The translations under genes were made by a program, and so were the position numbers. Of a stretch of DNA of 64,000 bases, positions 12,649-47,800 are shown one piece after another (positions within the stretch are counted from its first letter, which is position 1; each line of letters opens with the position of its first letter). A model generated the notes under the pieces. That model saw only the letters and a list, made by a program, of their open reading frames with translations. It ran no database searches and was not told the origin of the DNA. The stretch spans positions 53,069,702 through 53,133,701 of the forward strand of contig OZ020307.1 of assembly GCA_963971305.1 (NCBI GenBank). The letters are read 5' to 3'. The DNA comes from Arcuatula senhousia (lineage: Eukaryota; Mollusca; Bivalvia; Mytilida; Mytilidae).

Positions 12649-12700
12649 TCCATTGTTGTTAGCTGGGCTATTAATGATTATTAACTACAATGAGGGTCTT
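12649..12700 (-). pseudogene. INTS1 exon E2 remnant
   Basis: Only the last 50 or so bases of E2 are recognisable, ending in a GACCCAAA|gtaagt donor. The acceptor and the first three quarters of the exon are gone or unrecognisable. Confidence 0.75.
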
Positions 12701-13001: not shown

Positions 13002-13036
13002 CCCCCCCCACCACACACACACACACACACACACAT
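13002..13036. repeat. CA microsatellite
   Basis: A run of C followed by (CA)n of about 12 units. Confidence 0.9.
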
Positions 13037-13113
13037 GACCCAACATCCCCCACATGCACACACATAATGGAGTGTAACTTTTTTTCCCCAATTCATGTAT
13101 CCTACATTCATAC

Positions 13114-13266
13114 CTGGTCATGACCATTTCCATCATACATTTAAGTGTTGGGTAGTTTTCCCACGAGGTATGACCAAACGTCCTAGTATTGAAGGCTGAT
13201 AGGACCAGTAGTATCACCCATGATTTCCAGTACAGGTTAGATATAGCCAATGTTGGTGGAGTGTAC
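13114..13266 (-). pseudogene. INTS1 exon E1 duplicate
   Basis: 153 bp with intact splice borders and the same reading as 57535-57687. It belongs to a fragment with no 5' half above it and broken exons below it, so I call it pseudogenic. Confidence 0.85.
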
Positions 13267-13989
13267 CTGTAAAAACAAGAAAAAACTTTATTTTAACATT
13301 AATGTACGGCATTTTGTAGGCAAACGTCTATTACCAATTTTTTTAATGCAAGAAATTTACTATAATAGTTAATTTTAATTTTTTTCTGCATTTAAACAAT
13401 ATAACTAAATAAAAATTCCATCAAACAAGGCGGAACATATTATCAACTGGAATACTGACAAAGTCAAAGTCTGATAAAACTGAAGTTATTTAAAAAATAT
13501 TTGATGCATTTGCATAAAACTAGATGCTGGATAGCGGTAATTTTGGGAGTTGCACATTTCTTGATTTGTATCCAAAAAGGAGGTATCAAATTTAAGCCGT
13601 CTTTTTGGCATTTGTGGAATCTAGAGTGTGTTACATGTATGGGATATAAAATTGAAATGTGTTTACAGAAAAACCACAGCAAAAATAAATGAATCTACAT
13701 GTTACAATCCTTACCTCATTAATTTTCCGGAAGCCAAATGTCTTTGTTACAATACTGTTCTACATTCTCCATAAACAATACTTTGTGCAGGCTGCAAATA
13801 ATACACTACAATTTTGTAACGAACGAACAAAATAGTATATTTTCTTCTGAAAGATTGGCCAGGCTATGGACAATAAACTTAATAATGTATCTATAATATT
13901 GTTGATTTTTGAAATCTTAAAAGAGGAGTCTGAGCATCTTTGAATTGGGATTTTCAAATTTTTGACAAATTATCCTATGTGTCTTTATA

Positions 13990-17800: not shown

Positions 17801-20800
17801 TTGTTGAGGAATTTGATAAACTTAGCTATCACAGGGACCAGTACTTTCTCATTTCCATGATTCTGCAAAGATATGACGTACAGTACACCAACAGACATAC
17901 CGTGACTGATCACCGTGATAGTGGTACACCACTCTTAGAGACATAACAAATATCTTTTTTGTTGTTAAAGATTTAAAAAAAATTCTTTTTACATTTTGAA
18001 GGAATGATTATACAGAACAATTTCCAAAAAGAATTTTTGAAAAATCTTTAACCACAAAAAGATATTTGTTATGTCTCTAAGAGTGGTGTACCACTATCAC
18101 GGTGATCAGTCACGGTATGTCTCTTGGTGTACTGTATTCTATATATTGTAACAATAAAACATAAACATAATCTAACATATGCATTACATGAAAATTATTT
18201 CTTTAAGTCAAATTTTTGTGTTTCAAAGCAGGTGGTTAATTGTACTCAACTGAAGATAAGTCAAAGCAGGTGGTTAATTGTACTGAACTGAAGATACTTG
18301 TACTTTTAGGTTGGATAGAGATGTAAAAGTAGAGTTAAAGCTGTTGACACCTAAGCATCAGATTCGGTTGGATACTACACAAGAAGTTTATAATGATATA
18401 ACTGACCTAATAAACACCATAAATTTTGTGAACCAATTTCAGAAGACTTAATTATTTATCAAAGAAAAAACATCTTCCAAGAAAGTCAGGTGACTCAATG
18501 AGGTATTCTTATCAGGTCAGAAATTTATAAAATGCATGACCTCTAACATTTAATCCTTACCTGAAGCAGAGAGAAATATGAACCAATGATGTCTTCTAAT
18601 GAGGTCAAATCTTTGTAGAATACATGTGGCTGAAGATTTTCTAGGAGACCTTGAATGTGTGTGAACATCAGCACATAGTTTTTGTGTCTCATCTCACCAA
18701 ACTTAAATTCAGTTTTTCCTTTTAGTAAAGCTGCTATCAAGGGGAGTTGCCTGAAATGGAGAAAAAAAAGCATATCAATGAAAAATAATGTAACATATTC
18801 ACAAAAAATAGTTTTACTTGGAAAAATTGCACAACTTCAATAAATTTCTAATATTAACCTCCCACTAAGCTGTAATTTTGTTTATACAGTATGACACAAT
18901 TTCTACAACTACCAAAATTTGAAGTTTATGACGGTTAAGAGATGATCCTGGATTTTTAAAGCTACGAGACTTTGGAAACAAAAGTGTGGCTTTCCAACAT
19001 TTTCTACAAATCTTGTCTCATGACTCCATTAGATGTTTCAAAATGATGTAATAAAGCATTTCGAAATAGAATAAAGTTCTTTTTCAAATCCTGATTTTAG
19101 AAAACCTTTAAGGATGAGTGGCTAACCCAAGCTATCTCCTCTCACATTACCTTAACAATAGGACTGGGTGTTGTGCCGCTAACTTCTTACATGCCATTGT
19201 GGCATCCGACATCCTATCTTCTGACCTCTTCCCGTGACCTGTCTGACCTAAACCTGTCAATAACCTGTGAGAAACTAGGTCAACCTGAAGTAGTGAGAAG
19301 ATAAAGTAGGAAAATCTAGAGCAAGCGAGAATTTGTACATGTAGTAAAAAAGGTCTGCTTAAAACAAAACTAGTGACAAAATAAAGAAAATCTGAATTAG
19401 ATAAGAAAAATAATCATTATCATACTAGAATGCCTTTATTAGCAAATAAAGAACCTTAAAATCAAAACTTTTTACTTGTCATTTTCAATACTTGTCTTAT
19501 ATAATACCTTTGTTATGAAAGTCTGAGACGTGCTGATGTCTGTCATGTTTACATCAGACTCTGGCATCATGTACAGGACTTTAGGACATTGGCAGTATAG
19601 CTCCATTAGCAACTGTTCATATACATTCTTATTTCTGAAAAAAAAATCAAAGTTTAATAAAGCATGATGCCATACTCTGCAACATGAACAAGTAACATTA
19701 GCTTGACAGTAACTCTGATTTGGTTTGTTTTCTGAATGGACCAGAACACATTATGCCCCTCTTCTTTTGTAGGTGGGTTCAAATGCTACACATGATCTAG
19801 GTAGACTGTGCATATTTACATTTAAATAGAGTATGTGTACAGAACTTAAGGACATTGGCAGTCAAATTCCATTCACAACTGTTAATAAACATTCTTATTT
19901 CTGAGACGAAAACAACAAACACTCGTGATAATTTTAAAGTGGCAACATTTTTTTAGTATTTTACATCAGAAATTTACATCTGATGAAATTCTAACATAAA
20001 ACAATAATGTATGATAGCCAAAGTATTTAGTATTATAATTTGCACTGACTTCAAGTTTTATGAAAACAAATTAAAACTAGAAATACTTTGAGCCAACTGA
20101 CAAAAGGATATTTCCCTTATATATCAAAATCTACAAAGTAAATGGATAAAAAAGTCTAATTATCTCCATTTACTAACATCCAAGAACACTGAACTGCACA
20201 TCTCAATATGATATGCTTCCTTCATGTCAAGTTTCATCGATGCATTTAGGAGTACATGTAGTTGTGCTTCTATAATACAAATGTATATAGACAGACTGCA
20301 TATAACTACTATTGACCCCTAAACTTTGTTTGCTGGGGTATAAACAGAATATACTTTGAGATTAGTAAAACTTTTCTTAACCAAACTGGATTAAAAGTTC
20401 ATTCCTTTTTTTTCTTCATATTAGACCTTTATTAAAACAAACATTTGTATATTCAGAAAAAAAATTCTTTTGTCCAAAAAGGTCAAGTCCAGGCAGATTT
20501 CACTGTAATATCGAAACTTTTAAAGCCAAATTAAGATTTCATGATGTTCTCCCCCTTTTTATACCTGTTATCATTAATGGCAGTGGTGATGTGTTTTATG
20601 GCACATTTCATTGACATCTCATTTTCTCTGATACATGCCATCAGCAGACAGCAACGTAATCTAATCCTATCCTCAATGTCAAGGATATCTGTTACCATGG
20701 CAACCTCCTGAACTATGAACTCTACTACAGATATGACCTGCTGAGGGGTCAAGGCTAAAATGTCCTCTTGTTTGTGATTCTTAAAAGAAAATGATAAACT

Positions 20801-23800: not shown

Positions 23801-26800
23801 TACCTTGATTTAAAATGGCTGACAGGAATTAGTGGATCATACATCTTGAAGTCAATGTCAGTCATTTTAAATCAAGGTTAAGTTCTTTCAATAACTGACA
23901 ATGACAGTAACGAACCACATCAGTGATTTTAAATCAAGGTAAATATTTAAAATCGAATTTGAACTGTGCATGGTAATGTCAGTCCTTATTTTGGTTCATA
24001 GTTCAGGAAGAAGGGTAAGAATCAGAGATAATTTAGATGGGCACAAAGTCGTATTTAGGACCAGCATGCTGGGCAGACGCCTTCCCGTTTGACAGGAAAA
24101 ATTGATTAGGAACTGTATGAAACAAGAGGTCCCAGAAATTTTCTTCATAAGGAGGATAAAAACAAGTAAATATCTAATTTACATGTTCAATATTACTGTG
24201 CAAGCTATAGTTCAGTAGCCTTTGGGACATCATCAGATTTGATTAAACTCTTTATAAGGAGGATAAAAACAAGTTAAAATTTAATTTACCTGTTCAATAT
24301 TACTGTGCAAGCTAGTTCGGTAGCCTTTGGAACATCATCAGATTTGATTAAACTCTTTTTAAGGAGGATTAAAAACAATTTAAGTCAAAATCTAATTTAC
24401 ATGTTCGATATTACTGTGCAAGCTAGTTTGGTAGCCTTTGGAACATCATCAGATCTGATTAAACTCTTTATAAGGAGGATAAAAACAAGTTAAAATCTTA
24501 TTTACCTGTTCAATATTACTGTGCAAGCTAGTTCGATAGCCTTTGGAACATCATCAGATTTGATAAAACTCCTTTTAAGGAGGATAAAAACAAGTTAAAA
24601 TCTAATTTACCTGTTCAATATTACTGTGCAAGCTAGTTCAGTAGCCTTTGGGACATCATCAGATTTGATCAAACTCTTCATACAATTTTTCATTAAACTC
24701 TCTACAGTTTGTTCACCTTCGTCGGCTTTAAGCTGAATTTCTAAAATAAATGCAAAAAGACAAATTAAATATTGATTATGAAATTTCATCAACATAACAT
24801 TCAATATCACAAATGGAATTTGAAATGTTTAATATAATATTATTTTTAATAAAGTTTAATACCATATTATAAGTTATGGAATTAGTGTTAAAGACACAAC
24901 TACTACATTATTAATTCTGTGAAACCAAACTGGAAACCAGTCAACAGCATTCAAATGTTCAGCATGACCAAATATTCTATTATAAACAAGTGTGGCCACT
25001 AAAAGTATGTCTCGCCTGCTGGCACCATGACTTAGTTCAACTACCTGAGCTTTCATTTCTTGACATAAACATAAAAAGTGTCTTCCCAATATCAGATGCC
25101 TAGCTATAATAATTGAAAATGGGGTCAAGGTCACATGGCATGGTGACAGTTTCGTAGACCATTACCTCAACTGTCTGTATAACCAATATCAGATGCCTAC
25201 CTATTGTACTTTTCCAGCCAATCTTCATCCACAAAAGTCTTATAAAAATTTTTTCGGCCTATAAAAGACCTACGTTCACAGAGTCACTGGAGCATGAAAA
25301 TGGGGTCACATGGCCACACGGCATTGTGACAGTTGCGTAGACCACAACTTGAACGGTCTGTATACCAAATATCAGATGCCTAGCTATTATACTTTTCAAG
25401 CAATTCATTGTCCACCAAAGTCTTACAAAAAAATTTTCGCCTATAAAAGACCTCAGTTCACAGAGTCACTGGAGCGTAAAAATGGGGTCATGGCCACACG
25501 GCATGGTGACAGTTGCGTAGACCACAACTTGAACGGTCTGTATACCAAATATCAGATGCCTAGTTATTATACTTTTTAAGCAATTCATTGTCCACAAAAG
25601 TCTTACAAAAAAGTTTACCGCCTGAAAAAAGAGCTAAGTTCACAGAGTCACTGGAGCATGAAAATGGGGTCACATGGCCACACGGCATGGTGACAGTTGC
25701 GTAGACCACAACTTGAACGGTCTGTATACCAAATATCAGATGCCTAGCTATTATACTTTTCAAGCAATTCATTGTCCACAAAAGTCTTACAAAAAAGTTT
25801 ACGCTGGTGCTGTCACCGGAAAGTCATACCTATGTCTCGCCTTCCGTGACTATTTGTCGCAGACAAGCCAACAATAAAAATGAATTTTGTAAGCGTAAAT
25901 TTAGTCCATTTTTTATTTTTTATTTTTTCAATTTATGGAAAAAACATATCCATATACTACATGTATAATCATCATTTTAAGGCACCTTTTATGATCTCCT
26001 TAGGCTGCCCTGTGAGTATTTGATGTTTGGTTGGGTCAGACTTTTCTGTGCCCTTTTCTACATGGTATTTTGATATGATAGTTGCCAAAACAGATTTCTG
26101 AGAGACGTTAGACAAATTCTGCATCAAAATCTCTAGATGGTTCCCAAGTCCTTCCTGCAATTAAAAGAGTAGGGAAATTTTTATCATCAAAACCTGAATT
26201 CAATACATGAATCTTGTGGTAAAGAAGTTGAATCAGTACTGATCAGAAGTAAAATATGAACAGAGAAATAATATTCAATGAAATATACCTTACCCAAAAC
26301 AACTTTGTAAAATACTGGTATCAAATCAAAGTCAATAAATTAGAAATTAATGACTATCAATCTTTAAATACAATTTACATGTACTTAATATATTATTTCA
26401 TTTATATAAAATTGATATATTTTTTTTAATACTTACACTGTGGGAAACAAGAATCTTGAACAAGGGACAAGACTTAGGATTAGTTAGGATTCCTTTGATA
26501 AACTTGGCTCTTTCAGGACCAACCATCAGCTGAAAAAAACATTAAACAAATCAAGCATCATAATAAATGTTTCTGACAATTCAATCAGACAAACATTACC
26601 ATAAACTTTGATAAACAAATGATTGAATTTTCTACTTCCTAATTTCTTTTTTCAAACTTTTACTTTGACATTTAAAAAGCCTATAGTATCTTTCTCTTCA
26701 TTTTCCATTTAGAATGTGCTGATAATTATGAAGCAGGGTTTCCGCTGGCGTGGGCCACTTGGGCCATTGGCCCTATTTTATCAATTCTGGCCCAACAAAG

Positions 26801-29800
26801 TGGCCCAAAATGTTGGTTCCGTATTTTGATCAACAATGTCATTTTCGTGTCATTTAAACTGACAACAAATTTCACTATGAAGCCCTATTTATTGATTTAT
26901 GATCCAAGCTAACACCGTTAATTAACTGTCAATTGTGTAAAGGGGTCGAAATAACAGGTGCTTGACCATCGCTGATTGATTTGGATTAATTGATAGAAAT
27001 CAATCATGAATGCAATATAATTGACCAATCAGGAGTAAGTTTATTTTTATATCAGCTGATTTAAATGGCAATTCACGTGCTCTGACCATGTTGACCAAAT
27101 GATAAATATTCTTGTGAAAATATCAGAAAAACTGGAAGTAAACATAGATGAAAGGATTTACCTTCATGAAATTATTTTATTAAGAACATCCTGTAATCCA
27201 AACACATCCTTTTTCATGCATCAAATTGAGATCAGATGAGAGAACTGGTAGCCAGACAACTCGGCCCGAGGACAAGTCGGCCCGGGACAACTCGGGCCGG
27301 ATTTTAAGACAACTCGGACCGGTAGAAGACAACTCGGCCCGGTTCAAGAAAATAAATATTTTATGATATTTAACGTATATAATAACGGAAAGATACTTTT
27401 TAAATAATTTTCGGTTAATTTTGTGTGCATTAAACACTAGATTTGCATAATTTTTATAGCAGTTTTCACGAAATATCCTTTCACTTCTCTAGTTCTCTGA
27501 TTTTGACTTCATGTTTGCAAATATAATGTTAAAGCTTTACTTATCTAGATCTTCAGCTTTGATTCTAAAAAATATATAATAAGAAGTATGCCTACACATG
27601 GAAAAAAATTGTGTGTGAAAAAGGCTTTAGATTTTTTTAACAAAAATAAATTGTTTATTTTTTCATATTTTCTCAAATAAGAATGATTGTACCGTACATT
27701 TTTGTAAAGTTAATTAGCTTTCTGGTTGATAAAAATCATGTCTATGGCAGACTTGTTGAAATAAAGCAAAGTTGTGTAACATTTGAATAGAATTTTCTCA
27801 CTTTGCTGTTAAAGATATAAACAGGTTAAAGTCGGGCCGACTTGTCTTATAGAGGGCCGATTTGTCCTACAGACCGGGCTGAGTTGTCCTGGGCCGATTT
27901 GTCCTCGGGCCGAGTTGTCTGGCATTCAGAGAACTTTGTTTACATATTTACGATCTCTGTCTCCTCTGTAATACCCTCCTTTTGATAGGAGCACCTCCAT
28001 AACAGCAGAGTACTGTGGTTTAGTGGAGTTCCAATGATTGATTTATTTTGTTAAAACAAGTTTTTTTTATTATATTATTTTTTTGCCCATATTATAACAA
28101 AAACAAAAAATTCTAGAAAGATCTGTAGTACATTAAAAAACATTATGACAGTTTGTTAAATCTTAATATGATTAACTATGATCGATTCAACAAATGTTTA
28201 AATATATATTATTGAACATAATAATAACTGTTGTAATCTGTGTGCTTTCCTTGGTACTGAAAATAATATTAATAATGATTTCCGGCCAAAACTCAAAAAA
28301 AAAATATTGGCCCAATGTCATTTATGTTGGCCCAAAAAATATGCATTTGGCCCAAGGGATGGCCCAAAGAAAAATACACCCAGAGGAAACCCTGTGAAGT
28401 CAATAATTTTGACGATGTATGACCTTCAAGGGTTCATTTCTATGTCCATATGCTAAACATCATTATTATTAAAATATACGATATTGAGATGTGGAATAAG
28501 TGTACGCGACACAACAAACATAAACAAACAGCAATTCAAAAAATAACAACGGAAAACAGCGAGCAGTCTTCAACATGACCATAGGTCACTGCTTACCGTC
28601 TTGCATTGGCCCAAGACTTATAATACAATACAAAAGTATCAAAACCAATCCCTAAATCATCAACGAAAGACTCAATTCTTGACATAAAACAGTTAACATA
28701 GAATGACAAGGACAAACAAAGGAATTGGCAAAGTTTCCTGGCTTAGGACAGGCACATATAAAATGTGGCGGGGTTAAACTAGTTTTTTGGATCCAACCTT
28801 CCCCCTATTGATAAGCTTGCACAAAGCTACATTTAAAACACATTGTAAAACTCAATCAACAAAAGTTCAATTCAACAAGAGAGAACCTAAGACAAAATAC
28901 TGTACGAAAACAACAAGACAAGGAGGAACTCTCTTGAGATTACACTCGAAGTTACTGACAACTAGCTAAGAAACATTTATCGATTGATGTAAAAGAATCA
29001 AATACATCAGTTCTAAATCCGACACCCCACGTCAAAAAAATGAATGATTAAGAGTTGTATCACCATACAGAACCGACATACTTGATCGCTGTGGTGCATG
29101 CATGCATTAGTTTTTTTCCAACTTACAACACTCTATTAAAACAGTTGTACTGACATTTCTTGACACTGTTTTTAATGGATTTACTTTATTGTGATTATTA
29201 CCAAATTCTCATTAACTATTTCCCTTCCTAGCTATCTACATGAAATAATGTTGTATGTTTGTATAGGAGAAGTAGGCATACATTTCATAAAGGGTGGTCT
29301 ACTAAACGTCTTTATAGTGATACTAACCTCCATAATACCAGATACAATATTCTGTACAATTGGTAGATTTGATGGTCTGGAAATTGTCTACAAAATAAAT
29401 CATCATTCACAAAGTCATACACAACGCATGTTGTTTTATTGTGTAAAAGTAAAAATTTGATCATTAAACTTCATGCATAAATATTCATATTTAAGTGTTA
29501 TTTTGATACAGCTAAATTTTCTATATTTAGTTAACAAAGTAAAACTGATGCATAAATTTTATAGCACAATTATTATCTTACAGCATAAAAAATCTGTCAA
29601 AAATGGCAGGATTTCGTTAAACAGGAAGTAGGTGAGCTACATACCTGAAATCGTATCCCACGTTATGGGACCCCACCCTGATGCTGAATACCAAATATCA
29701 AGTGGCTGTGATTAGTAGTTGCTGAGAAAACTGTTACGAAAAATAACATCAAATTACTTTCAAAATCAAATGAAAATACATCTATTATTTCAACATACTG

Positions 29801-32800
29801 TTAATAGAGTTTGGTAATTCCTGTGGTCATCAGAAGAAGGTTTGCCGCAGTAAACCTGTAAAATATGGAAAAAATCTCAAGTAAATAAATCAATTCCACC
29901 AGTATGATAGATTTTTATAAGGGCATCGCAAAAATTGTAAAAAATCATAATCTTAAAAGCATTCTAACTACACAATTTCAAGCAAAAGATTGTAAATTTA
30001 TATCTATTTATAATTAAGTTACAGCTTTAAGCATTCAATAACTTTGTCCCATACCTTAACCAGAAGTGTCTGTCTTTGTCCCATACCTTAACCAGGAGTG
30101 TCTGTATTTGTCCCATACCTTTACCAGGAGTGTCTGTATTTTTCCCATACCTTAACCAGGAGTGTCTGTATTTTTCCCATACCTTAACCAGGAGTGTCTG
30201 TATTTTTCCCATACCTTAACCAGGAGTGTGTGTATTTGTCCCATACTTTAACTAAGAGTCTCTGTATATATCCCATACCTTAACCAGGAGTGTCTGTATT
30301 TGTCTTATACCTTAACCAGGAGTGTCTGTTTTTGTCTTATACCTTAACAAGGAGTGTCTGTATTTGGCTCATACCTTAACCAGGAGTGTCTGTATTTGTC
30401 CCATACCTTAACAGGAGTGTCTGTATTTTTCCCATACCTTAACCATGAGTGTCTGTATTTGTCTCATACCTCAACCAGGAGTGTCTGTATTTGTCCCATA
30501 CCTTAACCAGGAGTGTCTGTATTTGTCTCATAACTTAACCAGGAGTGTCCGTATTTGTTCCATACCTTAACCAGGAGTGTCTGTATTTGTCCCATACCTT
30601 AACCAGGAGTGTCTGTTTTTGTCCCATACCTTAACCAGGAGTGTCTGTATTTGTCTCATACCTTAACCAGGAGTGTTTGTATTTGTTCCATACCTTAACC
30701 AGGAGTGTCTTTATTTGTCCTATAACTTAGCCAGGAGTGTCTGTATTTGTCCTATACCTTAACCAGGAGTGTCTGTATTTGTCCTATAAATTAACAAGGA
30801 GTGTTTGTATTTGTTCCATACCTTAACCAGGAGTGTCTGTATTTGTCTTATACCTTAACCAGGAGTGTCTGTATTTGTCCCATACCTTAACCAGGAGTGT
30901 TTGTATTTGTCCCATACCTTAACCAGGAGTGTCTGTATTTGTCCCATACCTTTACCAGGAGTGTCTGTATTTGTCCCATACCTTAACCAGGAGTGTTTGT
31001 ATTTGTTCCATACCTTAACCAGGAGTGTCTTTATTTGTCCTATACCTTAACCGGGAGTGTCTGTATTTGTCCCATACCTTAACCAGGAATGTCTGTATTT
31101 GTCCCATACCTTAACCAGGAGTGTCTGTATTTGTCCCATACCTTAACCAGGAGTGTCTGTATTTGTCCCATACCTTAACCAGGAGTGTCTGTATTTGTTC
31201 CTTGTCCCAGGCAGCAGTAGTTTTATGGAGGTGAGATTTCTGCCACCAGCCGCTAGTTCTGACACTTTTGTCCTTCATCTCTACATCTTTGGATGCTGAA
31301 AATAATCAAATAACTCCTTTGAATGACAACTAAGAGAAATAAAACTTCTTCATGCAAATCTCAATTGATGTACTTCCCTCATATAAAGTTTACATCAAGT
31401 GGGTTAGGATTTGATCTTACAAAATTCAGGACAGCCAGACAAGATGATTTTGACACATCCCAAAAGCTCAATTAACAATCGATTGAAAATCATTATATGT
31501 TCTTTTTATAAATTTTCTTAATCAAATTTGCCATGGAAAGTTTTATCTCTTTACCTACCCAGATCTCTCTGTTTTTGTAGATTGTAGAAGAGTTATCCCC
31601 CATAACCTAACTTAGCAAGATCTCCCTGTTTCAGTAGATTATAGAAGAGTTATCCCCCATTACCCAATTTATCAGCAAGATCTCCTTGTTTCAGTAGATT
31701 GTAGAAGAGTTCTCCCCCTTTAGCTCCTCTCATGTGCTGTATCTCTATTAGTTGAGCCATGTACTGTTTATCCTCCACTGATTGTTCAACTAGCACTCTG
31801 TCCACGACCACAGATTTATCCAAGGAAGTGAGTAGGGATGTCATACTCCTGACAGGAATACCAAATGTAGGAATAAATAATAACAACTGCCCAGGCTCTA
31901 TATCCTGTAAAGCTGAAAGTTCAGAGAACAACTTGATGAAAATTATAAATCATTCTTTTCTTGTTTATTCAAAATTCATTGTTTATCAATATATTTAAGA
32001 AATAGAGAACTGTTATAATGTATCATTTTTAACTTACTGTACTTTGATACTTTGAGAACTGTTATAATGTATAATTTTTTATCGTTCTTTGATACTTTGA
32101 GAACTGTTATAATCATAATGTATTTTTTTAATCACCAAGGCAGTTTTTCATTTGAACAAGACCAGTGGAATCAACTCAATGAAGATACAACCCCCCCCCC
32201 TCTTACTTTGATACTCTTGCTAAATGTAAAATTTCATTAAAACCCATCAAGCTGTTAAGGAGGATATTTAGTTACGACATGTGTACAGGACAAGAACAGA
32301 CAGGGGGTTAATATATACCTATTTTATCATAACCTTTGATAAACATGATTCCAGCACAATCTTATTCAATGCTATACACAAATATGTAAATCTTGAATTA
32401 TTATATGAGCACTTACCAACATCTACCAGCTGTTCAACATGTGACCTAATCATTCTAAGTTTCAGCCAATCAGGAAGCAGCAATGCCTCTTCTGATGTAT
32501 CCAGGAGGAAGGCAGAAGGAGTACTACCATCAACAGGGAACCAGGTCTCCAGTAATTCTTCATATTGACTCTCACCTGAAACATACAAAGTACAGAGATA
32601 ATGGATAGGCTGAACCATCAGTCATTCCCAAGGTCTGTAGGTCAACGGACAAATCGGATAAAAATTTGCTTGGTCGTCCAGTAAAATATTTTTATTTTTT
32701 TCATTGCACTGTACTGGTACACGATTACAGGACATGGAGAAAAGAGAAAAAAGAATACTTTGGAATAACTTACCCTTGAAATATGATTCGTAATATTAAG

Positions 32801-35800
32801 CCAGCAATCGGATAAAAATTTGCTTGGTCCAATTAAATATTTTTTTTTTCATTGCAATGTACATGATTACAGGACATGGAGAAAAGAGAAAAAAAATACT
32901 TTGGAATCACTTACCTTTGAAATATGATTCGTAATATTAAGCCAGCACTCCGCAGATAGCCCTGCTTTTTATAAGGGGCAGGACCCCCCTTTACTTAAAT
33001 ATCTGTAGGGATTCAACTGTTTTTCTGGCATAGCTACATGTATACATCAAGTGGTTCATAAATAAACAAACTTTGAGAAAAGGGGGTCATTATGTATGAA
33101 AAAAGAAATTTTGTATTACACTGTTGCCATGAAAACAGCAATAATTTGCTTCAAAAACCTGAAAAAAAAAGTGTCAACAGACCTTTTTTGCATGAAATTT
33201 GAACAATTAATGTTCTTCCCAAATATGTTGACATTTTATTTCAGTTTCCTGTAGAGCAGATGTCTAATTTTGAGAAAAATAGCCTCAACCTGGGTCATCG
33301 CTGTTTTGATTTTGCGCTATCTTAAGGGCCATAAAAAGTTTTTATTTTAAAGCATAAAAAATTACCTAAAAATACACCATCCTAGTTTCCCTTTGCATCC
33401 AACATGTTTACATATAAAGCTAGCAACACTAAATTATGTATCAAAATTGGGGGGAAGTGCCAGATACCACATTTTTTCAAATAAAAATATATAATATAAT
33501 ATTATGTTACCATAGCAACAGGTTTTGTAAAATTTTCTATATTTTCAACCCTAGCCAAATTTGGGTAACTAACACCCATCTGTGGAAAGCCTGCTTAGGA
33601 GAGCACTGAAAATATCTAATTTTTGTAGCGAAGTAATTTTTGCTACATTTGTGGTCCATGAAAATCTTCGAAAAAAATACACCCACAAAAACCTAAAACC
33701 CAATAATTGACATTTGAATGGAATGTGTGAAAATGAGCAACCACAAAAAAGATATTTTGTTGGATTTCTAATTTTCTGGATTGCACTTGTTGCTAATAGG
33801 AATCATTTAAAAGAAAACTTTGTTGATTTCTTATTTTTGTGGTTAATTGTCATACATGATAAACATGAAATTTGGTACCGTATGAATAATATTAAAACCA
33901 CAATAAATTAACTTTAAGTGGGACTGGTCAAATAAACTGTGATTGACTAACCGTGGAGTTTAACCTCTTTACAATACCTAGACATAGGTCTGCAGCAATG
34001 TAAAACTGTGATTTAACTGTAATTTCATCTATAACTACTACATGTATAAGATATGCCATTCTATTGTAAAGTAATAATGACTGACTGGGGAGTTTAACGT
34101 CATGACTATACCTAGATATAGGACGGTAGTAAAAATTAAGAATTTATGACATTATTAAGATAAATTGTTGTATCATTAAATGAAAACTCAGGGGTGATGT
34201 AATAGTTATTACATGAAACCAGGATGTGTCAGTAAAAGATCACCCCAGACAGAAGGACAAGGGAAAAACTATATGGCTGATCCACATACATGGTCAGGCC
34301 ATAAAAAAACATGCTTTGAAAAACAAAAGAAAAAAGTAGATCAGGGTCTTCCAAGTGATGATCTGTCTCAGATCAGCCATGTTAGAACAAAGAGCTGGGA
34401 TGTAAAAACTGTTCAGAAAATAGAATGTTCCATTAGAATGAAAACTCAGGAGTGATAAACTTTTAAATAAATAGTACATTCAATCCCTGAGTGAAAAGTC
34501 AGGGAGGATTAAGATAGAATACTCCATTTCTAAGTAAAAGGGGTTAATAAATTTAACTGTTTATAAGCTAAAATGTTCCATTACTGAATGAAAACTTGGG
34601 GTTATAAACTGTTAATAAGATAGGACGTTCTATCATTGAGTGAAAATTCAGGGGTGATTTACTGTTATAAGATCAAATGTTCCATTTCTGAGTAAAAACT
34701 TAGGGTTGATAAACTGTTAAAAAGATAGAATGTTCCATTATTGAATGAAAATTAGGGGTGATAAACTGATTATAAGATAGAATGTTCCATTATTGAGTGA
34801 CAACTAAGGGGTTATAAACTGTTCATAAGATAGAATGTTCCCTATTTAGTGAAAACTCAGGGTGATTAACTGTTTATAAGAATGTTCTATTATTGATTGA
34901 AAATTAGGGGTGATCAACTGTTTATAAGATAAGATGTTCCATTACTGAGTAAACACTCAGGGGTTATAAACTGTTTATATGATAGAATGTACCATTATTG
35001 AACAAAAAATCAGGGGTGATTAACAGTTTATAAAAATAAGAATGTTCAATTTTTGAATTTTTACAATTTTAAATGTTAAAGATAGAATGTTCCACTAATG
35101 ATTGAAAACTCTTCGACGATAACTGTGTTTCCAGAAATAGTTATTACATGAGGATGCATTGTGTCAGTAAAAGATCACCTCGACGGCCGAAGGGGTGATC
35201 TTACTGACACACCAATTCCGAATGTAATAACTATTTTACGTCCCAGCCTTCAAAATATGTCATGTAAAATTTTAATACTAACATTAGAATACATTCTGTG
35301 CATTACGAGTCAAAAAGCAAACATTTTTATAATATATAATAAAAACTATCCTTATTGGGCCCCTTCAATATTCTTTATGTACAAATTTTTACCGTAAAGT
35401 TTCCATCAGATTCCTGGCCCAGTGGATATGAAGGTAGTCTTGAAACAGAGAGAACCAATGTTCAAACACCAGTGGGAAGAATTCTATTTTTCAATCTTCA
35501 AATTTATTGAACATTTCTCAAAAAACATGCTTTGAAAAACAAATGAAAAGAAACAATAGAGTTGAAAAAGTAGAACAGGGTATTCCGAGGGATGATCTGG
35601 CTCAGATCACCCCTGTTAGGACAAAAGAGCTGGGATGAAATCCATTAAAGATTTCTGTTTTTCAGTTTATCCCATATCATACATTTGGAAAGACCATATA
35701 TCAGTAGAATAATCATTGCATGGACCACTATTAAAGATATGCATGGTACAGAATGTTTTAAGTTTACCTAAGTTTTTGTTAAATACAGGTATACATACAT

Positions 35801-38800
35801 TAAGGAGGGCCGTAGGTCAGTAGAATGATCATAGCATGGACCACTAAGATATGCATGGTTACAGAATAACCAGCTATTTAGTTTATTCAAGATTTTGTTA
35901 AATACAGGTATACATACATTAAGGAGGGCCGTAGGTCAATAGAATGATCATAGCATGGACCACTAAGATATGCATGGTTACAGAATAACCAGGTATTGAT
36001 TTTATTTAAATTTTTGTTAAATACAGGTATACATACATTAAGGAGGGCCGTAGGTCAGTAGAATAATCATAGCATGGACAACTATTGAAGATATGCAGGG
36101 TTACAGAATCACCTGCTATTTAGTTTATTTAAGTTTTTGTTAAATACAGATATACATACATTAAGGAGGGTTGTAGGTCAGTAGAATGATCATAGCATGG
36201 ACCACTAAGATATGCATGGTTACAGAATAACCAGCTATTTAGATTATTTAAGATTTTGTTAAATACAGATATACATACATTAAGGAGGGCCGTAGGTCAG
36301 TAGAATGATCATAGCATGGACCACTAAGATATGCATCATTATAGCACCAACATTCCATAGCAGTTATATAGTAATCATGTTTGTGAAGTGCAGGTATACA
36401 TACATTTAGGAGGGCCATAAGTCAGTAAAATGATCATAGCATGGACCACTAAGATATGCATCATTATAGCACCAACATTCCATAGCAGTTATATAGTAAT
36501 CATGTTTGTGAAGTGCAGGTATGCATACATTTATGAGGGCAGTAGGTCAGTAAAATAATCAAAGCATGGACTACTATTAAAGATATGCATGGTTACAGAA
36601 TAACCAGGTATTGATTTTATTTAAGTTTTTGTTAAATACAGGTATACATACATTTAGGAGGGCCGTAGGTCAGTAGAATGATCATAGCAAGGACCACTAA
36701 GATTTGCATCATATATTATAGCAACAACATTCCAAAGCAGTTATATAGTGATCATGTTTGTGAAGTACAGGTATACATACATTTAGGAGGGCCGTAGGTC
36801 AGTAGAATGATCATAGCATGGACCACTAAGATATGCATGGTAGCCGAGTCACCACCATTCCATTGTAGCAAGATCTGATCTTGTGTGTTGGACTGAAAAA
36901 GAAAAAATGCCACGTATAGGTATGACTGATTAAAACAAAGCTTTTAAAAAAATTTCAAAGTCAAAATTGGCCAAATTTGTTCAACAGGAAGTAGGTGAGC
37001 GACAGACCTGAAATCATATCCAATGCTATGGACCCCACCACCATGTTGTATACCAAATATCAAGTACCTGTGATTAGTAGTTGCTGAGAAAACTGTTACA
37101 CAACTTTATTCCCCACCCACCTATCCTCTGCCCGCCCACTGCACACTACATTAACCATTTTAAAACCTTAATTTTTCTGTTCGTGAAATGATTTCCCACT
37201 AAACGCACTAACGTTCCAATAAGGTACCCATAACGTTCATTCATGGTTTCTAGAACGTTCCGAAATAACATTGCAGGAACGTAAAAGTGTAGACTCCATT
37301 TTCGGTTCTTATAACGTTCCGTCGGAACTATATTGGATCGTTCCCTGAACGTTTTCTGGTGGTTTTGTTTTACCTCTTGAGGTTCATGTATAGTTTTAAG
37401 AACGTTTTATTTACGTTCTGCTAATGTTTTACCAGCACCCTCTCACAACTGGTGGGATGATTTTAGGTATATGTGATTTATGAAATTGTTTTTTTTTTCA
37501 TAAATCTTCGTTTTTGATAGTTTTTAAGTCTTTTAACATTTTTTGAATGTCTTTCTGGTTTTGAATTTACATGGTGTCACTGCTTAATCTTAATTAATAA
37601 GAGCAGTTATGTTATCTATATCATAATGAATACTCTTTGCAATGGCATTTAGATCTTCCAGATAGATCGTCTCTGACAAGTCTTAAATACACTATAAACG
37701 GGCGTTCATTTAGCTGAAACTTTCTTGCAAAAAGAAAAAGAAAAACAAAAATATATTTAGATAGAATATTTTATAAGAAAAAACTCCACAAACACAGTTA
37801 AAAGTTTCAAGTGCAGTCATTAATTATAGTCCATTTCCTCTTTATCCTATATATTCTCACTAATAGTTCCGTGTAAATCTCAATTTAAGTATCATTTCTA
37901 TTCCATCTCAGTTGAAATTTTCAAGAATTACATTCATATTTGTCACTTTATTAGAATGATATGGTCTCTTTTATCATCGTACTCCAAGATCCTTTATTCT
38001 TCATGCATTTGTTTTCCTGAAACGTAAAAGAAATTTATTTTATCCAATAAGAAAAAAATGACACCAAAATATACACAAGCTGCAGTGAGATTATTATTTC
38101 TTTTAATCTAACTAATACATTTAAGCATAAATATAAACATCTTATACTTTATTAGGAATAGTACATGTAAGTTAGGCTCTCAACACGTTGTTGTCTATTA
38201 TGATAGAATAATTTAATAATTACATAATTTAATGTCTTAATTAAGTACCAAATAGTTTCTATTAAATGGGTAAAGATCCATGAATATATTGTTGCTTTGA
38301 ATATGATGCAAAATAAGTAATCTCACATCCTACCTCAACCACCTATAAAATTCAACCCTTTAACATCACCAAGACAATTTGAAGTTTCAAATTGAGTTAA
38401 GCCGGCATTATTTTTTCTATCCTGCATGTATGCATATTATTGTGAGTGGACCTGAAAAGAAAAAAAAACGCATTTTAATGGTAAAACCGCTCGTTATGTA
38501 TTTCTAATTTTTAACATTCAATGATAAAATCATTACACTTAATTGCACTTTCTTGTGGCAACTAATTACGATTAGTGTATCAAGTTTAGATATTTTTCTT
38601 ATCTTGGGTCAGCATGACCGGTGTTGTAGCGGATGCAATTTGATATCTGTGTGTAGAGATAAAGCGCTCGTTTTTAAATACACAAACTCTCAGCTTAATT
38701 ACTTTGATTTAATATCTTCTATATATCGTGCATGTATATATCAACAAATGAAATCAAAATAAACACAAATTTATAGAATTGTCGTTAACAAATATATTAT

Positions 38801-41800
38801 TCATTACATAAATGTGCATGAACACGAGAAGTTGATTGTCTGATTATTCATTTGTTATTTAAGAATATTTTGTCTAACTAGTATGATAGTTTATACATAT
38901 TAATCAAATCCGTTAGAATCCCAAATATAATTTGTTCTTTTCCAACATTTTGTCAAAATAAAAATAGTTTCTTACCGGTATATCCGAGACATTGAAATGT
39001 GTCTATCCTGTCGGCAGTCATAATTTTTCAAACGCGGGCGATACTGTTGTGCGCATGTCTATTTTCAAGTGCAAAATACTTCACATGTTTATTACTGAAT
39101 TTGAAATTGAAATTATTTTTATGTAAATTTGTATTTTTATAAGAATATACATAAACAATTGCGATAATTCATATTTTAGAAATGTAAATTAGACCATGAT
39201 ATATTGATACATACCATTGAATGTATTTATAAAAAAAAATAAGGAATCATTTTTAAAAGTTGAAATACATATCGCTTGACGCATTTAAAATAATTCCTTT
39301 TCTCAAATAATTGTTAAGGAATTATGCATGCTACATGTATAACAATAATGTTTTAATAAGTATCTTACATGTATTAAAGAAGAAATTCTTTATTTTTTCG
39401 AAGGACCTTTAAAACATTCTTAAAACGTTTTAATTACAGTCCGTTTTCTTGCGTTTTGTACTAACTGTCTCAGAACGACCCATGAAATATTTGAACTTGA
39501 TAGAACGATATAATAACGTTCGTACGGAACGTTTAAAAAAGGTTACAGCGGAACGTTACGAAGGGACCTTGATATAACGATATAATAACGTTCGTACGGA
39601 ACGTTTTAAAAAGGTTACAGCGGAACGTTACGAAGGGACGTTTTTAAAACGTTCTGAGAACTATATAGTTTTAAAAAACCCTGAGAGAACTATAAACTAA
39701 CGTTCCGATACCGTTCTGTGTTCAGTGGGTTAATCTGGCAAAAAATTCCATAAAAGACAACCATGTCCAGATTTTGTTTCACAGAAAAGAGATAAGAAAC
39801 TTACCTTAAGGTTCATCAGGACTGTTTGATTATTTTTTGTGCAGAAAATCTTAGCATAACTATGTAATGTTGCATTTTAATTCTGTTGGTTGTGTCACAT
39901 ATTCCATTAAATATTATATGACCCAAATCATCAAAAGAATCATTAGTGGGCCATAATAAAAACAAGGGTCTGATTACATACAATAAGTGTAAATCTTAAA
40001 ACTTAGATCAACATACCCATGAATATCCCTCCTTCTGTGGTTCCTTAGCTTTCTTCAGATATGTATTGTACAGCATGATCAGAGATTTGAGGGTTTCATG
40101 CATCTCTGTAGAATTTTCTCGTCCTTCCTCTGGTAAGATGTGGCTAACGATAGTATTCCTCTCGACAATTAACTGAGCCATATCCTAAAAGATAAAAGAT
40201 TAAAATATTACATGTTAAATGAGTTTCATGTATCTCTGTGGAATTTTCTCTTCTTCCCTGTGGTAAGATGTGGTTATGATCGTATTTCTCCCCCACCAAC
40301 TTAATTCTGTCCTAAAAGAAAGAAAATTAAAACATTGTGTAGTGGGTAATTTTACAAAGTCACAAATTTTGCAATTTGTACCCAAAAGATGGGTGTTAAA
40401 TTTTAACTGCCTTACTGTTGTAAATGGGGCATAAAAATTTGTGCAGGGTCACATTAAAGCGGCTAGCTGTTTGAAAATTCCAATGTGGAATTCAAATAGC
40501 TGCTGACTCATGTAAGTTGTCTAGGGCAAACCTATTCCACATCTTAATTTCTCCTGTATATCATAATGGTTGAAACCAATACTTAGCAGAACCACTTCAT
40601 CTAACTGCTGTAGAGTGAGATCATGTGACTGAGTGGACTAAATACTTACCAGAACCACTACATCTAACTGCTGTAGTGTGAGATCATGTGACTGAGTGGA
40701 CTAAATCCTTACCAGAACCACTACATCTAACTGCTGTAGTGTGAGATCATGTGACTGAGAGAACTAAATACTTACCAGAACCACTTCATCTAACTGCTGT
40801 AGTGTGAGATCATGTGACTGAGTGGACTAAATCCTTACCAGAACCACTACATCTAACTGCTGTAGTGTGAGATCATGTGACTGAGTGGACTTAATACTTA
40901 CCAGACCCACTTCATCTAACTGCTGTAGGGTGAGATCATGTGACTGAGAGAACTAAATACTTACCAGAACTGTAGTGTGAGATCATGTGACTGAGTGGAC
41001 TAAATACTTAGCAGAACCACTACATCTAACTGCTGTAGTGTGAGATCATGTGACTGAGTGGACTAAATACTTACCAGAACCACTTCATCTAACTGCTGTA
41101 GTGTGAGATCATGTGACTGAGTGGACTTAATACTTACCAGACCAACTTCATCTAACTGCTGTAGGGTGAGATCATGTGACTGAGAGAACTAAATACTTAC
41201 CAGAACCACTTCATCTAACTGCTGTAGGGTGAATCATGTGACTGAGAGGATTAAATACTTACCAGAACCACTTCATCTAACTGCTGTAGAGTGAGATCAT
41301 GTGACTGAGTGGACTAAATACTTACCAGAACCACTTCATCTAACTGCTGTAGAGTGAGATCATGTGACTGAGTGGACTAAATACTTACCAGAACCACTTC
41401 ATTTAACTGCTGTAGAGTGAGATCATGTGACTGAGTTGACTAAATACTTACCAGAACCACTACATCTAACTGCTGTAGAGTGAGTTCATGTGACTGAGTG
41501 GACTAAATACTTACCAGAACCACTTCATCTAACTGCTGTAGAGTGAGAACATGTGATTGAGTGGACTAAATACTTACCAGAACCACTTCATCTAACTGCT
41601 GTAGAGTGAGTTCATGTGACTGAGTGGACTAAATACCTACCAGAACCACTTCATCTAACTGCTGTAGTGTGAGATCATATGACTGAGTAGACTAAATACT
41701 TACCAGAACCACTTCATCTAACTGCTGTAGTGTGAGATCATGTGACTGAGTGAACTAAATACTTAGCAGAACCACTACATCTAACTGCTGTAGAGTCAGA

Positions 41801-44800
41801 TCATGTGACTGAGTGGACTAAATACTTACCAGAGCTGTAGAGTGAGATCATGTGACTGAGTGGACTAAATACTTACCAGAACCACTTCATCTAACTGCTG
41901 TAGAGTGAGATCATGTGACTAAGTGGACTAAATACTTACCAGAGCTGTAGAGTGAGATCATGTGACTGAGTGGACTAAATACTTACCAGAACCACTTCAT
42001 CTAACTGCTGTAGAGTGAGATCATGTGACTAAGTAGACTAAATACTTACCAGAACCACTTCATCTAACTACTGTAGTGCCAGTGAGATTATGTGACTAAG
42101 TAGACTAAATACTTACCAGAACCACTTCATCTAACTGGTGTAGAGTGAAATCATGTGTCTTTTGACTGAGAGGACTAAATACTTACCAGAACCACTTAAT
42201 TTAACTCCTGTAGAGTGAGATCATGTGACTGGGTGGACAAAATACTTACCAGAACCACTTCATCTAACTTCTGTAGAGTGAGATCATGTGACTGAGTGGA
42301 CAGAAACATAATGTAGGAACTGATAACTGATGGGTCTGTCTCTATCTGACATGCCTGAAGAAAAGATAAAATTACTTTAGAAATTAGTCTATATTCTAAA
42401 GACAGGAGTCCCCCAGGAGCCTGAATTGCTTATATAACTAAAATGCCTCAATTTTAAGCTTTGAGGTAAAAACCACTTCTTTTACATTATAAGGGTCATA
42501 GTCATATGACAACTTTAGTTCAACTAATGTATCGAAGTGTTAAGTCCAATAAGCTGACGATTTCAGAAATTAAAAGCTCTTCATTATTTTCTACATCTAC
42601 AATATGACGGCTCCAAGGCATAAACAGTAATTTTCATGTTTAATTGGCCATTATTCCTACTTCCATATAATATTTTTGGTAGGGATTATCTAACTTTTAA
42701 ATTACAGTTCACAATACAATTTGACAATTTGAAGGCTGTGGAAATAAATCAATTTTGTTGTTCTAAGGAGAATAACTCATGAAAGAACCTACATCTTTGG
42801 CCATTTACAAATTTTGTAGATCTTTAAGTGTATAACAGTATGCAATTAAAATTTTTTATTAAATATCTTTCAAGATCTTCAGCTTAATAACCACAAAGTT
42901 AAGAAAAAAAATCAAGAAAAAAGACAATGACTCCTCAATTCTTAAAATTATCAAGGCATCTTGAGATTCTGAACATTTTGCACCTAGTCAGAAATTTGAT
43001 ATACCAAGTTTGATAGCAATTGAACTTATGGTGTCAGAGGATTTTTAAACAGTTTTCATTACAATAAGGAAAGGCTGTAGAAAAAAAGTTTTAAGATTCT
43101 AAGGGGAATAACTCCTTAAAAGATTGGTACAAAAACTTTGACTCTGTTACATGTTTTGTAGATCTGGATGTGATGAACAATATGCAACTAAAATTTATCA
43201 AATATCTTTTTCAAGATATTAAACTTCACAAGTGCAACACATGGAGAAAAAAAATAGGAAAAAGGGCAATAACTCCTAAATGGACGGTTGGGTCTTCTTC
43301 AAAATTTCTGAACAGGTAAATTTTGAGGTGCTGTGTAATTTTACCCACAAAGAAATGTTAATGTCTGCAACAGGTTTGGAGTTATTTGCATAAAACTACA
43401 ATTTACCCTTATGTTCTATTTTTAGAAATGGCGGCCATATCGTTTTACAAATAAAAATCCAAATGAAAAATTTGTACCACCCATGCCAATAAACAATTGT
43501 AATAAGTTTGGTGCCAGAGGAGTAAACATTCGAAAAAGTTGACAAATGGTGCCAAGAAATAGCAATAGCTCACCTGACCCACTCACCTGACACTTTGGGT
43601 CAGGTGAGCTGATTTGAAGGGGAGTGAAACAATAAAAAAACGAATCTTTCTTTCATTCAAACTCTTGTAGAAAAGGCAGTAATTGATGTAAAAATCTTCG
43701 TAATCACACAGTTTTTAAGCTTTTGATATTTTATACTATATACTAAAATTCAAATACTAAAGTGGTAAATGTGTTTCATGTAACATAGCAATATGTTTAT
43801 AAATGCACACATGATATATTGCATCATGTTATAATTCCTCAACTGCTCTCATTCTTTATGGTAAACAGAATTTAAATGCTGTTTTTAACGTCTGTTGAAT
43901 ATGTAATAATATTCCAGAATGGAATGTAATGGCATGCACTGACAATAAAACTTAAGTTCAACTATCTTATAGAGTGTTAACAATAGAGCATATATTTAAT
44001 AAAAAAGATTGTAATGACTCATAGAATCAGAATATAATTTTTAAATCTCAATCATTAATGTTCAATGAAATGAATGGACTGTAATATAATACAATGACAA
44101 TTTAACAACTGTTCTTTGTCAAAGTAAAGATGTAATCATTCTCTAAAACTTTGCATTCATTGAAACATTGAGATCTCTTTAAACATTTTTCATTCAATTT
44201 ATTTCTAAAGAGACAACTAGTCGTGTAACACTAGAACTTCCTTATCAACTCGTTGTCAATACACAAAGTGTAATCATTACCAAAACAAAATTACAATGTT
44301 CCGCACAACTGTACTTGAATGAATAATGCAATTTAAAATATAATTGTTCATACAGACTTACATGTATGCCAAAAAACATTGCCAACATACAAATTTTGAT
44401 TTATTACACACTATATAAGGTAAATAAGTTTATCTTGTGTTTATTTGTTTTATAATTCTAGTAATATTTCTGTCATTTCAATAAAATGATATTTAGTGTA
44501 TTAGATCTTATCTGTTAAATGTCAATAAAACAACAAAGAAGCTAACTTAAACTTGAATCAAGGATCAATTATTTGTAAAATCAAATAAAATAAATTCAAA
44601 GTAAAAACAAATTTCAAGTTGTTTTTATTTAAGTATCTAAATAGTTTGAAAATGAAATAGCCCTTCTATAGCAGATCTAAAAAAGTAAAAAATGGCAGGA
44701 TTTTGTTAAATAGAAAGAAGATGAGCAACAGACCTGAAATCATATCCCAAGTTATGGAACCCTTAATTACCCTGATGCTGTATACCAAATATCAAGTGGC

Positions 44801-47800
44801 TGTGAAATGTAACTGTTACGAAAATTTCTACCCCACCAGCAAGATGCCCGCCCGCCTGCCCAACATTCACCATTTTATAACCCAGATATTTTACCTTGAG
44901 AAATCCAGCCAAAAAGGGAGGGATGTAGGGGTTTAAAGTCATCTGTTGTTATTAATTAGATGATTTTTGGCAAATTATTAGCCTGTTGTCCTGAACTCAT
45001 GAAGGAGCCACCCACTTTTGAAATTTTCTCAACCCATCTTAGTTTTTATTGTAATAACAGATTATATAACACAATATTCTCTTTCAGATCCTAGCCATGG
45101 CTTCTACATGTAGTGTATGTTCAAAAGGAAAGAAAACATCTGCACCTTCAGTCTGGTGCCCTGATTGTCATGACCTGCTTTGTGGACCCTGTACTGAACA
45201 TCATTCACGCCAGAAAGATACAAGAAATCACAGCACCATACCATATGAAGACTACCAAAAGTTACCGCCCTTTATTTTGAAGATAAAGCCATACTGCACA
45301 GAACACAAAGAGAAATATACCGAGTTTTGTAGGGTCCATGATACACCGATATGTATCACATGCCGAAAAAAGCATCACCAGAAATGTAAAGACATCCCAA
45401 AAATTGAGGATATCGTACACAAGGTTAAAGATTCTGTGCTATTTGAGGATACAATGTTGGAGATGGAAACCAAATGTGGAATTTTGAAACAGATTGCTGA
45501 TGATAGAAACAAAAATCTAAAACAATTAAACATTTCACGCAAGAAAATGAAAGCAGGTTTTGAGGAAAAAATTGACAAGTTGATAAAACACTTAACAAAC
45601 TTGAAAGACAAAACCCTTTCTGAAATTGATATTGTGTATGATAAACTGGACAATGACATTTCCATCACAGTAAAAACAGTTCAATCCAAGGAGAATGAAC
45701 TTCATGCCATATTGGACCAGAAGGATGAGATCCTGAAGTACGCCTCCAATTACCAGACGTTGATCGGAATTAAAGAACTGGAGACCATTGTTAATGAAAT
45801 GGACATTTATCTTAATGAACTCTCAAACAATGAAAAACTTCTGAAGTTTGACCTGAAATTCAAAGTCAATGAGACCATTGAGGACATTATAAATGGTATC
45901 CAGTCCCTGGGAGATATCCGAGTCACCAATAGTCCTTCAGCCTTATCTATTCATAACACTGGAGCCAGATATTTAGAGGCTGTGAAAGTGGTACAGACAT
46001 CAGCACCTGTACAGCTCCAACTACAACAGACCATTGACCTGGATGGTGATCATTACTACTGGGGCTGCTGTACCTTACCTAGTGGACTGGTAGTGATTGC
46101 TGATTCTGGTGCCCGTGGTGGTTATGATTGTAAGGTAATAATACACAAGTCTGATGGATCACTTAGATCCACCATCAAGTTTGATAAGAGTGAGAGAGTA
46201 TATGATGTGACACCAGTAGATGATCATCATGTTGCTGTGTCACATCCTGAGTCTGGCACTATCTCCATCATAGATGTAGATAGTGACAAGGTGGTGAAAC
46301 AGTTAAAGGTTGGAGAGACAGTGGAAGGGTTGTGTTGTAGAGGTAGAGAGTTAGTGTGTTGTGTGGAAGAGAAAGGTCTAGTCAGAGTGAACATTGACAG
46401 TGGGAAGGTAGAGATGGTGATGAAGGATGAGAGTGTTGGTTATCAATCACATGTAGAGGTAAGTAGCAGTCTCATATGTTACACATGTCTTTTTCCTACA
46501 CACACAGTAACTGTACTAGATACTAAGTTCAATGTTACCTTTACATACAAAGATGAGTCTGTACTTAAGGGTCCTATGGGTTTGATAATAGATGACCATG
46601 ATAATATCTATGTCACAGGGGCCTGGTCTAACAATCTGGTACTCCTATCGCCTGATGGTAAGTCATGTCATCAGTTACTGGGTAAGGATGATGGACTGGT
46701 GAGTCCTACTGCTGTACACTATGACAGTAGTACTAAGAAACTGGTGGTGGTTAACCGTGAAGGACCTGCTCTTATTTTCTCTGTGGGTTAAGTATGAGGT
46801 TATCAGCAGTGAGAGAGTATAGGAGTGTTGTAGGGAGATACAGATAATGGTAAGAAGTCAAGCAAACTGCAATGTGTGGTGAAAGTCATAGAGTTGATTT
46901 ATTGGTTCTACTAAGCGGGTTGTTTTTTTAGCTCTGTATGATTCTAATATGAATGCGTGAATGTGGTTTAGGGGATGGATTAAAGCAACAGTAAGTGGTT
47001 TGCATTTGGCTATAGACATGGGGTTGGTTTATTAGACATGAATAATTCTGATATGAATAGGTGTGGTTTAGGGGATGAAAGAAACAGTTAGTGACTTGTT
47101 TGTGACAAATAGACTTACAGTTGGTTTAATTAGCTCTGATTTATTCTGGTATGAAACTATGAATGTGTGAATGTGGTTTAGGGGATGAATTAAATTAAGA
47201 TATCATTGATGGTTTTCAAAAATTGAAAAATGTGAGAAAAGTTCGTTTGCTTTAGAAATTTCATTCTAGGCTAGCTTATATCTTCATTTTTGTAATCTTT
47301 GCAGCATCTGTGTATTTTATTAAGGCAATATACTTATATAGTTGTTTAAGATATTTAACCTACACTTTCTCAGTAGAATGTAAAAGATTGTTGTACAATT
47401 ATGTACAAGGAATTCTGAAAAAGTTTTAAATTAAAATTTTCTCCAACCCAATATTTTTGAATTTTTATATTTACTTTTATTGTGTAAGATTGCCCTTGAT
47501 ACCTGCTAAATATATACAAACAGTTAGTAGTTTTGTATTTTAGTTTTAAGGATAATGAATTACATCAGACTCAATTTTTGTTACTGAATCCTTTCATTAA
47601 TTTGTACATTTTTTTCATCTGTTATATTGCTTTGTTTGTAAAATGTACAAAAATCAAATTTTTATCAAATATAATTTTGGTTTATAACATATATATTTTC
47701 TAGTATTAAATGTATTTTGTTAAATTACAGAGTTATACTTGATGTTAGATCCTTCCAAGATTTAACATTTTAGAATTTCTGAAATTTTCGAGGCTTTTAT

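Follow-up and report, generated by a model that had tools for sequence, protein, structure and literature searches.

The INTS1 gene and its partial tandem copy

The DNA analysed, hereafter the window, is a stretch of 64,000 nucleotides from the mytilid bivalve Arcuatula senhousia, and it contains an INTS1 gene (copy A) that runs on the minus strand from 57688 down to 14750. Exon placement, guided by protein P0004, yielded 29 exons (E1 to E29), the number given in a preliminary description of this DNA, and 1371 codons could be read with a single in-frame stop, a TAG in the third codon of E6. The exon-placing script permitted only GT/AG sites, and under this restriction a frame-keeping GT/AG pair was found for all 28 introns. 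Junction scores were 68-128 at 26 junctions, -2 at E16/E17 and 29 at E17/E18; these two weakest junctions are located in a poorly conserved stretch. The best protein matches of the exon translations were mytilid INTS1 proteins (73% identity to that of Mytilus edulis across the full query), human INTS1 (PDB) was matched by the string of exon translations from the window, and three INTS1 domains were detected in E7-E29 (Pfam). A tree grouped copy A, P0004 and Mytilus in a single clade with a support of 100/100, the branching order inside it being unresolved, and viral contigs queried with Mytilus INTS1 gave no match.

No exon was found within the window for residues 1-697 of copy A; it may be a fragment truncated at its 5' end, or the missing 5' exons may lie outside the window. 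A retroelement is situated immediately upstream of the first exon of copy A in the window. Given the stop in E6 and the absence of the 5' half from the window, copy A may not be intact.

A partial tandem copy of E1-E6 (copy B) occupies approximately 13.8 to 7.6 kb of the window. Identity between the two copies ranges from 87.6 to 96.8% across the five exons that were aligned (E1, E3, E4, E5, and E6), E2 being left out because copy B holds only its end. Copy B lacks 14 nt of E3 and is therefore itself damaged. Among 251 aligned codons, 242 of them countable, 4 non-synonymous and 28 synonymous differences were detected (dN/dS 0.035). Thus, either both copies were constrained during most of their separate history or they have been homogenised by conversion. 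The E6 codon that reads TAG in copy A reads TGG in copy B, and the TAG of copy A is either recent damage, an allelic variant or an error.

Tandem arrays across five donor sites

In copy A, five exons each form the opening unit of a tandem array whose copies run unbroken from the exon into the intron, as the preliminary description had reported for these same exons. All arrays are on the minus strand. That of E7 (exon at 42250-42354) extends over 40578-42305 with approximately 28 copies of a 63-bp unit, that of E9 (exon at 36781-36892) over 35674-36854 with approximately 10 copies of a 119-129-bp unit, and that of E11 (exon at 31664-31912) over 31553-31722 with approximately 3 copies of a 57-60-bp unit. 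The E12 array (30043-31201; exon at 31174-31295) comprises approximately 36 copies of a 32-bp unit, GTATGGGACAAATACAGACACTCCTGGTTAAG, and the E17 array (24142-24682; exon at 24611-24740, the exon with the least supported junctions) approximately 5 copies of a 105-bp unit. The unit sizes first proposed hold for E7, E9, E12, and E17, and only that of E11, given as about 65 bp, needs correction. In all five cases, the unit combines roughly 28-74 nt from the 3' end of the exon with the donor and part of the following intron. The position of the exon as unit 1 is automatic for any tandem duplication across a donor.

The unit consensuses of the five arrays have nothing in common beyond a chance 8-mer. 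The array exons, searched together with 80 bp of flanking sequence on each side, gave no further match in the window at E<=0.05, and the occurrence of units at other places that characterises dispersed repeats was not found within the window at this threshold. A translated 63-residue piece of the E12 array had no protein match, which is a weak test, also of whether this array is conserved in other genomes. The spread of a dispersed element was rejected as a source of the arrays, since the exon edges are unmatched elsewhere in the window. The earlier view that unit sequences are unrelated, and that one type of event has been repeated independently without any family spreading, therefore stands, as no matches longer than a chance 8-mer were found between the unit consensuses and none of the exon edges elsewhere in the window.

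Units carry 0-19% substitutions relative to their own consensus, plus gaps; some E7 units lack 16 bp or more within their exon-derived part, and the E7 array exhibits higher-order periods of 126 and 189 bp. This variation between units is that of an ordinary minisatellite array. It also bears on the possibility that the arrays are assembly artefacts, with repeats collapsed or falsely extended, for which the presence of a tandem partial gene copy in the same window could be invoked. However, units lie up to 19% off their consensus, with private changes and gaps, whereas false extension would tend toward identical units; such an artefact is very unlikely, although the precise number of units per array might be in error.

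Duplications across acceptor sites

An exon-by-exon search, in which the 29 exons with 80-bp flanks were compared with the window at E<=0.05, revealed three duplications that span an acceptor, all on the minus strand, upstream of their exon and with one extra copy. They were found at E4 (51463-51731; shift 152 bp, 82.9% identity), E8 (40093-40336; shift 127 bp, 76.9% identity), and E21 (19570-19919; shift 268 bp, 82.1% identity). As judged by eye, the E8 copy retains a pyrimidine tract and AG, and the E21 copy a pyrimidine-rich AG. The splice-boundary duplications in the gene are thus eight, five at donors and three at acceptors. Strict donor polarity is ruled out by the duplicates at E4, E8, and E21, and the uniform polarity initially attributed to the arrays is not exclusive.

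Donor arrays and acceptor duplicates differ in copy number, with approximately 3 to 36 copies in the former and two in the latter, and the chance that the three lowest counts all fall on acceptors is 1 in 56 (hand calculation). Because the acceptor duplicates are more diverged than the donor array copies, this contrast is confounded by age; nevertheless, the difference in amplification between donors and acceptors may be real. The choice of a 3' splice site tends toward the first suitable AG, so that upstream acceptor copies would be more harmful than downstream donor copies, which may be why no acceptor duplicate has been amplified here. Against a purging of acceptor copies, two of the three look splice-competent by eye.

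Boundary-spanning repeats compared with random placement

Local direct repeats were found at 20 loci in the gene, eight of which cross a splice boundary and 12 of which do not. With the 20 unit lengths distributed randomly over the 42,939-bp gene (6000 placements each, one array being entered with its 52-bp TRF unit and not with its 105-bp shift), 1.72 donor-spanning and 1.70 acceptor-spanning loci were expected. For this one gene, the probability of obtaining at least five donor-spanning loci was 0.021, that of at least three acceptor-spanning loci 0.24, and that of at least eight in total 0.025. Barring whole-exon and within-exon placements changed these values to 0.010, 0.16, and 0.003, respectively. 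Dropping six arrays judged to be "dispersed families" gave donor probabilities of 0.003 and 0.0008, which are not relied on. With the TRF arrays alone (19 arrays by hand count, after merging overlapping rows and excluding one poly-T run), 1.05 loci of each kind were expected; the probability of at least five donor-spanning arrays was 0.0045, and the number of acceptor-spanning arrays was zero (P = 0.35).

All these tests were made after the fact on one gene picked for its odd look. The excess of donor-spanning repeats is three- to fivefold, with P about 0.005-0.02, and is suggestive but not established, because the gene was picked as odd and because old duplicates that include a constrained exon are easier to detect. 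The preliminary description had considered the five arrays hard to credit to chance; an excess does exist, but it is moderate (P ~0.02), post hoc and limited to one gene. It had also suggested a process amplifying DNA across 5' splice sites, with which the excess agrees, although targeting is not shown by a single gene that harbours acceptor cases too.

A process of the genome that favours duplication across splice sites, above all 5' ones, and that might be linked to transcription or splicing, could have seeded the arrays. It would account for five donor-spanning arrays where 1.0-1.7 are expected, for eight boundary-spanning loci among 20 local repeats, for the independence of the unit sequences, and for the amplification of donor but not acceptor cases. 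Against it, the P values are modest and come from a single gene chosen post hoc, the acceptor cases indicate that the events are not donor-specific, and 12 of the 20 local repeats are clear of splice sites. Moreover, old exon-containing duplicates would be easier to detect, their exon copy being constrained. Seeding by such a process is considered unlikely.

Conservation and coding consequences of the spare donors

Of 81 donors, a count that takes in the five real ones, 75 retain the GT dinucleotide (E7, 25/28; E9, 10/10; E11, 2/2; E12, 33/36; E17, 5/5). This retention would fit selection maintaining many donors, for example as U1 binding sites against premature polyadenylation or as decoy sites. 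As a test, the 9-base donor window was ranked by diversity within the unit, from the lowest upward. The ranks at E9 (4/118) and E7 (9/63) lean low, in agreement with selection, but those at E12 (24/32), E11 (34/60), and E17 (61/105) do not, so that the donor columns are conserved inconsistently among the five arrays. Furthermore, a neutral array of such an age would probably also retain most of its donors. Selection on the donors was rejected on the basis of these inconsistent ranks, and its operation here is very unlikely.

The use of any of the spare GT donors leads to a premature stop (70/70, the six spare donors without GT being excluded). Therefore, only the first donor can yield INTS1, and the production of variant proteins by exon extension was discarded, as the frame breaks in every case. 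Together with the inconsistent diversity ranks, these stops leave the selection for donor-rich introns proposed in the preliminary description unsupported. Nevertheless, premature stops are compatible with unproductive mRNA, and the arrays might act as a splicing cassette in which downstream donors, or micro-exons formed by 21-nt pieces of the E7 units, give rise to protein variants or to an unproductive mRNA by which the INTS1 level is tuned. Differences between donor copies are few or absent, and the E7 array contains 21 sites of the form TACAG + 21 nt + GTA[AG]G (the true exon counted), 19 of them open. However, the 70 stops preclude variant proteins by extension, and lancelet mirages, in the accessible text of the reports, occur without splicing disturbance (PMC3087553, PMC3902484). 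A role as a splicing cassette is thus quite unlikely.

If the gene is normally expressed, E12 offers 33 GT donors and E7 offers 25, near-identical to one another and with only the first keeping the frame; these introns would then be a ready test of donor choice where local sequence cannot decide.

Comparison with known boundary repeats

According to the accessible text of two reports, the lancelet (amphioxus) genes Adh3, globins BflGb6 and BflGb9, troponin C, and PGBD5 carry "mirages" (PMC3087553, PMC3902484), the PGBD5 and troponin C cases coming from the second (PMC3902484). These are described there as minisatellite-like tandem duplications over either exon-intron boundary, with a gene-specific unit length, in which splice signals persist in many copies, though not in every one, and for which length instability and undisturbed splicing are reported (PMC3087553, PMC3902484). 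One globin mirage is given as 6 units in one haplotype and 3 in the other (PMC3087553).

The INTS1 units likewise span the boundary, with the true exon edge as one copy and the others intronic, and, as in the lancelet accounts accessible, both boundary types are hit (five donors, three acceptors). Some copies keep splice signals, namely GT in 75 of 81 donor copies and, as judged by eye, a pyrimidine tract followed by AG at E8 and E21. Relative to those accounts, INTS1 differs in belonging to a mollusc, in having eight boundaries affected in one gene, and in reaching up to about 36 copies. The likeness is one of anatomy only and is known here from one genomic sequence. Mirages of the kind described in lancelets, which are rare repeats, are nonetheless the best match, and the INTS1 arrays would belong to this kind, with the mollusc host, the density and the copy number as new elements. 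No mollusc precedent for such boundary arrays was recognised in the accessible text of the literature searched.

Two other systems share part of this anatomy, as far as the accessible parts of the papers go. Human segmentally duplicated genes contain internal tandem repeats at exon-intron boundaries (PMC2812944), which resemble the INTS1 case in their location and in affecting a duplicated gene (copy B here); however, they were found through paralog variation and are said to form new introns, whereas the INTS1 copies lie in existing ones. In the Rogers model, with cases in Drosophila, an intron is gained when an AG/GT proto-splice site is duplicated in tandem (PMC2891723). This model shares with INTS1 a tandem duplication across a splice motif, but, as presented in the accessible text, the intron is created inside coding sequence, whereas the INTS1 segment already had a real donor or acceptor. 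A tandem-array origin of human introns was reportedly treated by Zhuo et al. in PNAS in 2007, in a paper whose title connects arrays with introns.

Origin of the arrays

The arrays are most probably mirage minisatellites, that is, local tandem duplications in which the copied segment by chance included an exon-intron boundary of INTS1, a reading to which a probability of about three in four is assigned. Each array probably started as one short duplication. In E17, the 8-bp word TATGAAGA is present both at the array start, in the exon, and at the array end, in the intron; in E12, the 8-bp word TGGGACAA is common to both array edges, 7 bp off the unit's own alignment point. When 20-mers of the gene were paired at random 2000 times, 0.75% of the pairs shared eight or more bases (P = 0.0075 for each of the two words). 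The edge words at E7, E9, and E11 (5, 4, and 5 bp; P = 0.27, 0.68, and 0.27) are at chance level. The edge words would thus fit duplication between short direct repeats in E17 and perhaps in E12, and, to judge from the array edges, the initial duplication in E17 probably took place between an exonic and an intronic copy of its 8-bp word, separated by the length of one unit.

Minisatellite turnover, by slippage or unequal exchange, would then have raised some of these duplications to about 3-36 copies. The coding exon would necessarily be the outermost unit and the remaining array would be removed with the intron; therefore, the reading frame would be kept provided that the first donor is used. 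The spare donors would be passengers, and acceptor-spanning duplications would arise too, none having been amplified here. If copy A is dead, this argument from tolerated splicing applies to its past. In favour of local duplication, the exons remain coding (one stop in 1371 codons; dN/dS of 0.035 between copies A and B). Against it, random positions predict zero excess and a modest one is observed, the donor windows of E9 and E7 vary comparatively little (4/118 and 9/63), and no junctions in the gene model are weaker than those joining E17 to the adjacent exons.

A broader proposal, that a process tied to splice sites or transcription repeatedly seeds exon-edge arrays in mussels and, independently, in lancelets, with only the outermost donor used, is improbable. 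If true, introns with tens of near-identical 5' splice sites would constitute a natural experiment on how the spliceosome chooses a donor among equals. The present finding adds a mollusc, and a single gene with eight affected boundaries, to the range of mirages, in the sense of the papers that use the name for lancelets, as far as their accessible text shows (PMC3087553, PMC3902484). It also suggests a difference between donor and acceptor mirages in the extent of their amplification.

Repeats within introns 7 and 9

In the E7 array, the tandem array of 63-bp units that spans the donor site of exon 7 (E7) of INTS1 and runs into the intron (40578-42305, minus strand), TACAG followed by 21 nt and GTA[AG]G was found at 21 places, the true exon counted, 19 of which were open. 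The 21-nt pieces look like an in-frame seven-codon micro-exon, which reads QLDEVVL in 11 of them. Intron 9 carries a 52/105-bp array (34152-35179, minus strand) that spans zero splice sites, although it lies near the E9 array, which crosses the donor of exon 9.

Retroelement-like sequences around the first in-window exons of INTS1

Directly upstream of the first in-window exon of copy A, the 29-exon INTS1 gene, reverse transcriptase and tyrosine-recombinase frames were detected on the plus strand (58916-62912), the tyrosine-recombinase match being under the Pfam cut-off; we take them to resemble a DIRS-type retroelement. They are followed by a 107-bp tandem repeat (63218-63517). Frames resembling reverse transcriptase, possibly Penelope-like, were also located on the minus strand in the E1-E2 intron of copy A (56194-56678).

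Partial duplication of INTS1 and its flank

Copy B, a partial tandem copy of INTS1 E1-E6, lies downstream of the last exon of copy A (7613-13653, matching 50063-58272), with approximately 72-93% identity across matched blocks. Only the end of E2 was found in copy B, and an INTS1 fragment (residues 588-609) is located at 13790-13725. Regarding coding differences, E5 of copy A contains one additional leucine codon, and the third codon of E6 is TAG in copy A (50435-50437, minus strand) and TGG in copy B. Two similar intronless B-box (TRIM-like) ORFs were identified on the plus strand, one in the flank of copy B (2513-4204) and the other within copy A's intron 6, antisense to INTS1 (45097-46785). 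These paired ORFs belong to the same segmental duplication as the two INTS1 copies.
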